The notes beneath the pieces are model-generated. The model was given only the letters and a program-made list of their open reading frames with translations, did no database searches and was not told the origin of the DNA. Source: Candidatus Woesearchaeota archaeon (GTDB lineage: Archaea > Nanobdellota > Nanobdellia > Woesearchaeales > ARS49). Taken from it: 50,708 nt of DNA. The stretch is taken from positions 1 through 50,708 of the forward strand of contig JACQMY010000039.1 of assembly GCA_016203305.1 (NCBI GenBank). Direction: 5' to 3'. Positions 4,048-30,009 of this stretch are shown piece by piece; the stretch's first letter is position 1, and each line of letters starts with the position of its first letter. The position numbers and the translations under genes are program-made.

Positions 4048-4187
4048 ATAGAACAGACGAAAAGGGTTTGGTCAGCAAAATATCCGGAAAACACTACAGA
4101 AAACAACTGTTTCTCCGGTTCAAACCATAAACTATCCCGATTTATCATCGACTGGTATAAATTTGAGTAAAAAAGAAAGAAAAACAC

Positions 4188-4303
4188 GCCGGCGTTGGCT
4201 AACCAGGTTGGCCGGCGGTCCGAAACACCGCTGCCCGTAAGGGCTTCTGGGTTCAAATACCTTTCGGTGTACGACCGTAGGGATGAAAATCCCGGCGCCG
4301 GCG
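4188..4303 (+). tRNA. Type II tRNA (Ser-like, G73) with T-loop intron 4258..4289
   Basis: Acceptor GCCGGCG/CGCCGGC perfect; D-stem GGCT/GGCC; anticodon stem GCGGT/ACCGC; variable arm GCCC-GTAA-GGGC; T-stem CTGGG/CCCGG. T-loop TTCAAA|T is split by 32 nt with a bulge-helix-bulge (AAT, TTCA:TGAA, AAT). Loop CCGAAAC makes the anticodon ambiguous. Confidence 0.75.
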
Positions 4304-4319
4304 GCCTTTTTCATGCGGC

Positions 4320-4404
4320 GGACAGGTAGTCGCCGACTGCGGTCGTCGGAACCTGTCCTTGCTTGTTCGCTTCGCTCACAATGCGGCGGACAGGATTCGA
4401 ACCT
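4320..4404. repeat. Palindromic element plus partial copy of the tRNA-Leu 3' end
   Basis: GGACAGGT..ACCTGTCC hairpin (4320-4358), GTTCGCTTCGCTCAC core (4365-4379), and 24 nt (4381-4404) identical to the 3' end of the tRNA-Leu gene (4482-4505). Confidence 0.65.
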
Positions 4405-4482
4405 CAGCCCGTCTGCGGACGTTCGGAGCTTCGAATCCATCGTGATTTATCCACAAGAATATGCTGCGCATTTCCTATCTTA

Positions 4483-4566
4483 TGCGGCGGACAGGATTCG
4501 AACCTGCGAAGGCACTAAGCCGCTGGAGTCTAAATCCAGCCCGTTTGACCGCTTCGGTACCGCCGC
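4483..4566 (-). tRNA. tRNA-Leu (TAG anticodon)
   Basis: Reverse complement GCGGCGGTACCGAAGCGGTCAAACGGGCTGGATTTAGACTCCAGCGGCTTAGTGCCTTCGCAGGTTCGAATCCTGTCCGCCGCA folds as a type II cloverleaf; A73; no encoded CCA. Confidence 0.92.
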
Positions 4567-9415: not shown

Positions 9416-10045
9416 CTACTTTATGGCAAGGATGTAAAAACCGCGCGTAACAGTACGCTTATGAGTTCTGAACAACCTATCTAAAAAGTACGCAACACCC
9501 CCAAAACGAACCAAGTACACTTGACCGGGCAAAAAATACAACATTGTTTCAAAATAGCCACCAGTCTTATGCAATTGAAGCTTTGAAAAATCGCTGAACA
9601 ACACACGCAAACCATCATCAAAAAATCTGAAATTATCAGGATAAAACCCCTTCCTGGCATGATACGGATAAACAGCAGGAACCCAACCAACAAAAACTCC
9701 GCCCTGCTTCAAAATGCGATGCATTTCCTGAACCGCCTTCTTCGGATCAGAAACATGCTCCAAAACACTCAGACACAACACGCCATCAGCACAACCATTC
9801 TCCAAAGGCAAATTATGAATATCACCAACAATATCCGGACCAAAACGCGCATCAACATCAACAGACTTCACAACAGAATCATCGAACCAAGACCTATACT
9901 TTGCCAACGACTTCTGAAAAGGAGAGCCACCACCAACATCATAAATAACCTTGCACTTGGAAAGGACATGCAAAGCATGCTCGAAAAAACCAACATAATC
10001 TCTCATACGCATCAGAAACCAACCGTGCATTAAAAAGTTTGCCAC
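9416..10045 (-). CDS. Type 11 SAM-dependent methyltransferase
   Basis: VIYDVGGGSPFQKSL..GDIHNLPLENGCADGVLCLSVLEHVSDPKKAVQEMHRILKQGG. Confidence 0.85.
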   Translation of the reverse strand: MANFLMHGWFLMRMRDYVGFFEHALHVLSKCKVIYDVGGGSPFQKSLAKYRSWFDDSVVKSVDVDARFGPDIVGDIHNLPLENGCADGVLCLSVLEHVSDPKKAVQEMHRILKQGGVFVGWVPAVYPYHARKGFYPDNFRFFDDGLRVLFSDFSKLQLHKTGGYFETMLYFLPGQVYLVRFGGVAYFLDRLFRTHKRTVTRGFYILAIK

Positions 10046-10050
10046 ACGAA

Positions 10051-10065
10051 CGAAAGCTTTTTAAA
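10051..10065 (+). promoter_or_regulatory. BRE/TATA promoter of the eS8 gene
   Basis: CGAAAGCTTTTTAAA, about 23 nt before the ATG; near-leaderless. Confidence 0.6.
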
Positions 10066-10087
10066 CACCCCCTCTGGTCTCAAACCC

Positions 10088-10468
10088 ATGGTCGTAATAC
10101 ACCGCGGAAGAATGAGCAAAAAGCCAACAGGAGGCGTCTACCACCCAGTTGGAAGAAAACGAAAATACGAACTAGGCAGCCAGCCGACCAGCACAAAAAT
10201 CGGCAAGCACAAAGTAAAAGTAGTCGACCTAAAAAGCAGCGCGATAAAAATGAAAGTTCTCGTAGCAGAATACGCAAACGTTTACGATCCAAAAAGCAAA
10301 AAATATACAAAAACACCAATCAAGACGGTAGCAGAATGCCCGGCAAACCGACACTTTGTGAGACGAAACATCATAGTCAAAGGCGCAATCATACAAACAG
10401 ACGCAGGAAAAGCACGCGTAACATCCCGTCCTGGACAAGACGGAACTGTTAATGCCATATTGGTATAA
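10088..10468 (+). CDS. rps8e: Ribosomal protein eS8
   Basis: KPTGGVYHPVGRKRKYELGSQPTSTKIG..VRRNIIVKGAIIQTDAGKARVTSRPGQDGTVNAILV. Confidence 0.95.
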   Translation: MVVIHRGRMSKKPTGGVYHPVGRKRKYELGSQPTSTKIGKHKVKVVDLKSSAIKMKVLVAEYANVYDPKSKKYTKTPIKTVAECPANRHFVRRNIIVKGAIIQTDAGKARVTSRPGQDGTVNAILV

Positions 10469-29925: not shown

Positions 29926-30009
29926 ACAAATCCGAAAACTATACTGCTAACTTGTAAACTTTCCGGATTTCTCGTTGATGAGTATATTAATGAATAAAAA
30001 AGAAAACGT

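Follow-up and report, generated by a model that had tools for sequence, protein, structure and literature searches.

Serine-type tRNAs with a T-loop intron and changing, mostly hydrophobic anticodons in Woesearchaeota may break genetic-code rules or work outside ordinary translation

The interrupted gene and its splicing

What can a tRNA gene be for when its T-loop is split by an intron and its anticodon disagrees with its body? The question is raised by a locus in a stretch of 50,708 nucleotides, hereafter the window, from a 1.13-Mb Candidatus Woesearchaeota MAG (G000; 40 contigs, rated 100% complete), so that the archaeal host implied by the original prediction is the actual one. The pre-tRNA gene, supported by a covariance-model match, ARAGORN and alignment, lies on the forward strand at 4188..4303. 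BHB (bulge-helix-bulge) geometry divides it into exon 1 (4188..4257, tRNA positions 1-59), a 32-nt intron (4258..4289) and exon 2 (4290..4303, positions 60-73), which ends with the discriminator G73 (4303); a short T run read in the sequence at 4307..4311 is a possible terminator. The body carries a long, serine-like variable arm (V-arm), TGCCCGTAAGGGCTT (4232..4246), together with the anticodon GAA (4222..4224) in the loop CCGAAAC (4220-4226), whose position 33 is C and not U. G73 and the long variable arm fit tRNA-Phe poorly. The original prediction was silent on this Phe anticodon with C33, on the serine-like body and G73, and on the wider family described below.

The T-stem strands CTGGG (4247-4251) and CCCGG (4291-4295) enclose a canonical 3-4-3 motif, in which a central helix of 4 bp, formed by TTCA (4252-4255) and TGAA (4284-4287), is accompanied by two AAT bulges (4256-4258 and 4288-4290). 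Cutting within the bulges, behind the second base, excises precisely 4258-4289 and restores the tRNA fold, as expected of an archaeal BHB intron. The intron contains an inner helix of CCTTTCGGT (4260-4268) and ACCGTAGGG (4274-4282) with a single T.T mismatch, and its 5' part holds the family motif CTTTCGGT. Read as one uninterrupted unit, the gene is missed by ARAGORN and by the Rfam tRNA model, and it is absent among the RF00005 matches of the genome; once the 32 nt are taken out, ARAGORN recognises a tRNA of 84 nt with anticodon GAA. The predicted type II tRNA and the limits of its intron are thus confirmed by the BHB geometry and by this call, and its placement at 59/60 by the canonical motif, the central helix of which pairs in 32 aligned members of the family. 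The family covariance model, which counts the window gene among its training members, scores it at 125.7 bits (E 3.4e-23). The interruption is not a chance feature, because full-length homologues with the intron are found in many same-family genomes; the best in a whole-gene search of these genomes has 86% identity, intron included. A reading of CTGA in the loop as part of a C/D box RNA was dropped, as no kink-turn partner was seen.

An intron at such a position had been expected to imply a broad-specificity splicing endonuclease, and the type of the enzyme was to be sought in the genome. The genome holds one PF01974 gene and no paralogue, and its product of 175 aa is a single unit with both the N- and C-terminal EndA domains, matching most closely M. 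jannaschii EndA (1a79) at 7.7e-31 and the N. equitans catalytic subunit (3iey_A) at 9.2e-31. Tyr, His and Lys, which we take to be the EndA catalytic triad, lie in aligned blocks of the host protein. Judged by its sequence, the host EndA is of the alpha type, a single-unit subunit within the size of about 175-180 aa, and its assembly into an alpha4 tetramer is predicted. The M. jannaschii-type enzyme is a homotetramer, and non-canonical cutting has been ascribed to enzymes of different type, (alpha-beta)2 and epsilon2 among them (PMC4090602, PMC4033280). Since the BHB is strictly 3-4-3 and the alpha-type EndA is short and alone, no broad-specificity enzyme need be invoked, and that part of the original prediction is not borne out. 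The non-canonical introns of Thermoproteales likewise lie away from 37/38, depend on a BHB endonuclease and share similar sequences across several tRNA genes (PMC4033280, PMC8450103). The Woesearchaeota introns, in contrast, occur in a different phylum, at one site of one tRNA family, with a strict 3-4-3 motif and an alpha-type endonuclease.

Other T-loop introns were noticed on the way. A T-loop intron is present in a tRNA-Lys of G000, so that splicing in the T-loop is probably needed for an ordinary tRNA as well; the tRNA-Lys at L167:13427-13540 (minus strand) has an anticodon-loop intron in addition to its T-loop intron. Relatives carry T-loop introns in further tRNAs, including ordinary Ser and Pro (G023/G009 loci L214, L217 and L225; GTDB locus L129:2613-2707). 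True serine tRNAs of relatives (GCT, TGA, GGA) with a T-loop intron suggest a route by which the family arose.

A family with a constant body and changing anticodons

A GTDB scan with a motif spanning the T-stem end, T-loop and intron start matched mainly Candidatus Woesearchaeota records. The few remaining matches are labelled Nanoarchaeia, Aenigmatarchaeota, uncultured archaeon or bacteria, and none of those labelled bacterial is recognised by the family covariance model. At E<=1e-12 this model matches 64/197 sampled genera of the order, with some ordinary tRNA-Ser among the matches, and few genomes outside it. The family census, made on MAGs throughout, used a parser that required G73 and a V-arm and left out genomes with weaker matches. 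It gives 119 distinct genes with a T-loop insertion, 109 of which keep 4/4 central BHB pairs. Those taken as non-serine numbered 106. An ordinary tRNA-Lys and a misparse were struck from these, which leaves 104 distinct genes that combine a V-arm and G73 with a T-loop BHB intron and a non-serine anticodon, in about 40 Woesearchaeota genomes. We met no account of such a family, from Woesearchaeota or from DPANN archaea at large, in the literature searched, which is weak evidence of absence; the family is apparently undescribed so far.

In the 32-member alignment, covariation is seen in every stem (score 0.463 vs 0.167 shuffled; 25 pairs changed on both sides), the central BHB helix is paired in 100% of cells, and the acceptor stem and T-stem measure 7 and 5 bp. 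Most members share a CTTTCGG-like motif in the 5' part of the intron. Copy number reaches about 10 in each of G001, G015 and G109, with a patchy distribution across genomes, and inserts or contig ends interrupt some of the copies. One member with anticodon GAA (L311:1549-1739; G000:C37, about 9914-10104) has a hairpin-rich insert that divides its T-arm before the T-loop intron. Such multi-copy, patchy and partly broken genes could be selfish or neutrally drifting tRNA-derived repeats, pseudogenes or SINE-like elements. We regard this as very unlikely, given the compensatory changes in all stems, the near-invariant BHB, a conserved promoter element and loci conserved across genera; nor are mobile-element genes common neighbours. 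Carriage as mobile-element cargo was likewise rejected: among the clustered neighbour proteins of 73 matches, no integrase or other mobile marker is common, and several neighbours are housekeeping genes.

Anticodons change in place. The ordinary tRNA-Leu(TAG) with A73 that neighbours the window gene on the minus strand (4483..4566) allows the orthologous locus to be recognised in sister species G001 (L175), where the flanking genes and the tRNA-Leu are the same, with repeated 3'-end fragments in both; the window gene reads GAA, its orthologue GTC. Between these two tRNA genes of the window, at 4315-4480, lie two nested copies of the tRNA-Leu 3' end (ATGCGGCGGACAGG...), each closing a palindrome; comparable copies occur in L175 at 4151 and 4260. 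The intergenic stretch separating a ribonucleotide-reductase-like gene from uS7 contains a family member in three genera, reading GAG in G000 (in opposite orientation), GAA in G001 and CTC in G003. One G036 gene and two from G163 differ only in the anticodon arm, their anticodons being CAG, GAC and AAG. On a poorly resolved tree, at least 75 anticodon changes are needed among about 119 genes.

Serine identity and the choice of anticodon

For 102/106 spliced bodies, the best match is an ordinary tRNA-Ser from the window's genome. With its intron removed, the window tRNA shows 72% identity to tRNA-Ser(CGA) and 59% to the best Leu; the ordinary tRNA-Ser genes of this genome (TGA, CGA, GGA) have no T-loop intron. 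G1-C72 is found in 105/106 bodies and G30-C40 in 64/106. SerRS does not read the anticodon, whereas G73 and G30-C40 matter for serine identity (PMC9976931). The V-arm, G73, G30-C40 and G1-C72 together indicate that these tRNAs are most likely serylated by SerRS, of which the genome has one above the cut-off.

Among the anticodons, GAA (28), GAG (20), GAT (17), AAG (12), CAG (11) and GTC (4) are followed by CAA (3), GAC (3), CAC (2) and single others, and A35, as in Phe, Leu, Ile and Val anticodons, is present in 93%. The A35 bias would be unexpected were the anticodon free, and counts against a simple allo-tRNA-like reading. Anticodon-reading synthetases (PheRS, IleRS, ValRS) could instead charge some members. 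Charging of the family by these enzymes, as extra decoding capacity for NUN codons, would render the NUN anticodons harmless, and A35 is indeed an identity element for Phe and Val (PMC9976931). We nevertheless find it unlikely: A73 belongs to the identity sets of Phe, Val and Leu, and G73 is an antideterminant for archaeal LeuRS (PMC9976931), while the counted members have G73 (a criterion of the parser), and members with GTC, GCC and CTC do not fit. Ordinary A73 tRNAs for Phe(GAA) (L138) and Leu(GAG) (L026) are also present in the genome, which rules out the window gene as sole decoder of Phe or Leu codons. This tRNA-Phe(GAA), identified after splicing by hand, lies at L138:200-300 (G000:C9) and has a 24-nt hairpin intron in the anticodon stem, and ARAGORN takes the gene for Leu(CAA). 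Two findings together had been named as speaking against the original prediction, a further, intact tRNA of this identity at another place, and relatives that lack this copy. The former exists, as the tRNA-Phe(GAA); the latter does not hold, the family being present in relatives.

Serine-charged tRNAs with such anticodons pose a problem of their own. UUY codons amount to 45 per 1000 in the genes of the window, and efficient insertion of Ser at these Phe codons would be expected to do harm; decoding is therefore probably poor or only induced. TTT still codes for a conserved Phe in EndA (GADFR), which indicates that this codon is not wholly reassigned. C33 occurs in 18/106 members and a pyrimidine at position 37 in 17/106. 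We know of no archaeal tRNA that uses A34, and its presence in the 12 AAG genes hints that these tRNAs may not serve normal decoding. C33, C37 and A34 all point to decoding that is weak or absent.

Among known systems, the window family works most like bacterial allo-tRNAs, SerRS charging being inferred from identity elements. Allo-tRNAs reportedly go back to Mukai et al. 2017. They combine serine identity and a V-arm with highly diverse non-serine anticodons, and Ser insertion has been demonstrated for some in E. coli (PMC7609411). The window tRNA has the same V-arm, G73 and non-serine anticodon. Allo-tRNAs, however, are bacterial, fold their 12-bp acceptor domain as 8/4 or 9/3 and have no described T-loop intron, whereas the Woesearchaeota family is archaeal, folds 7/5, is interrupted by a BHB and is biased to A35. 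Because the bacterial origin and the 8/4 or 9/3 fold are lacking (7-bp acceptor, 5-bp T-stem), the window tRNA is not filed as an allo-tRNA. Nematode V-arm tRNAs (nev-tRNAs; PMC4033280, PMC4300185) also join a class II body to a class I amino-acid anticodon and bring code ambiguity, but are leucylated products of nematode nuclear genes with mainly Gly(CCC) and Ile(UAU) anticodons, in contrast to the Ser-type body and G73 of the Woesearchaeota tRNA. Neither system is archaeal or T-loop-interrupted. The Candida tRNA-Ser(CAG) for CUG (PMC1991585, PMC4814463) resembles the family as a tRNA-Ser on a leucine codon with a non-U residue at 33 (G33), but has one fixed yeast anticodon, whereas the Woesearchaeota anticodons are many and species-variable, with C33 in some only. 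A tRNA-Sec would require a UCA anticodon and the 9/4 archaeal fold, where the window tRNA has GAA and 7/5.

Promoter, leader copies and possible roles

The upstream sequences were studied by pattern search and inspection. A genome-wide pattern search showed that the window gene is preceded at 4141..4161, on the same strand, by a promoter motif common to G000 family members, TTTATCATCGACTGGTATAAA, composed of an upstream element and a TATA box. Upstream of G000 members, TTTMTCRTCGACKRGTATAWA was found with 0-1 mismatches at three and 2 at a fourth, the T-arm of which is broken by a hairpin insert. The reversed pattern gave 0 matches genome-wide, and the motif was not seen upstream of the ordinary G000 tRNA genes checked. 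A few weaker sites in G000 precede protein genes: L310 and L313 (G000:C3:24016, C15:10741) lie before kinase-like and lamin-tail-like secreted proteins, read as such by eye, whose genes have near-identical 5' leaders. A copy of the motif with 3 mismatches at window 29968-29988 is followed by 230 nt without a clear ORF that contain tRNA-like pieces (GGTTCAACTCC at about 30203); the family covariance model (R1) has no match in this stretch, which is possibly an unannotated RNA.

About 30 members, most of them belonging to other families of the order, have the sequence of their anticodon loop and flanking stem repeated exactly, in the same sense, 29-97 nt upstream, usually at 43-59 nt. Exact 7-nt leader matches number 30 vs 2.6 expected (maximum 10 in 2000 shuffles), and downstream and reverse-complement controls are near background, one G109 tandem pair excepted; the G064 match, at 29 nt and not extending into the stem, appears fortuitous. 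The copy is located in a degenerate tRNA 5' half, and by eye the whole first 43 nt of the tRNA seem repeated in the G187 leader. At one locus in four genomes of one genus, the anticodons are GAT, AAG, AAG and CAG, each with a matching leader copy (examples of leader copies, 29-102 nt upstream of the tRNA: L290:201-316, L259, L267, L266, L268:201-316, L284:201-318, L253, L299 and L303). Gene conversion between tRNA and leader repeats is possible, but the other leader parts have diverged from the tRNA, with about 70% identity in the D-arm and 83% in the 5' anticodon strand, which counts against it. The idea that the leader supplies an alternative 5' half through BHB splicing was discarded on inspection: same-sense copies form no BHB and most leaders have no acceptor strand. 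Pairing of the intron loop with the anticodon loop was also dropped, the mean match (3.25 vs 3.17) not being above chance. Complementarity of at least 6 nt (6-7 nt) occurs in 6/106 vs 1.4 expected (L177:4008, L199:4028, L206, L201, L171, L192:8743), a lead only, as this test was chosen after seeing examples.

The leader copies, which change together with the anticodon, bear on whether these RNAs take part in elongation at all. The spliced RNAs may serve as tRNA-shaped decoys or regulators, with the anticodon arm as their fast-evolving working part, for instance as anticodon-nuclease bait or as an RNA partner. Rapid turnover of this arm on constant bodies and residues unsuited to decoding (C33, C37, A34) are in keeping with such a role. 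A35 in 93% of anticodons resembles a codon-based constraint, however; a decoy has no obvious need for the full cloverleaf, G73 and acceptor stem that are kept, and the window gene has no leader copy of its anticodon loop. We hold such a role to be possible, if not the expected one. We are more doubtful of a broader proposal, in which a serine scaffold gated by the T-loop intron, with an exchangeable anticodon arm, a dedicated promoter and, in many lineages, a matched leader copy, would form a class of reprogrammable tRNA-shaped RNAs that impose serine at NUN codons or bind RNAs or nucleases.

The reading that we consider probable is that of a spliced class II tRNA that is serylated and behaves like an allo-tRNA with a foreign anticodon. 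The gene would be transcribed from its own TATA promoter, the lone alpha-type EndA would cut the T-loop BHB, and ligation would yield the 84-nt tRNA, which the single SerRS, blind to the anticodon, would most likely charge with serine. The resulting Ser-tRNA, here with GAA, would decode poorly or only when induced (C33), or act outside elongation.

A pipeline that found the window gene would label it Phe by its anticodon. If its tRNA is serine-charged, the family would be the first archaeal counterpart of allo-tRNAs, as far as the searched literature shows, and would bring code ambiguity, from many genes and in quickly changing form, to a diverse archaeal group; otherwise it would still be a large family of tRNA-shaped RNAs. 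The paired leader copy offers a concrete, testable handle on the family. Either way, serine-type tRNAs with changing, mostly hydrophobic anticodons may break the rules of the genetic code or work outside ordinary translation.
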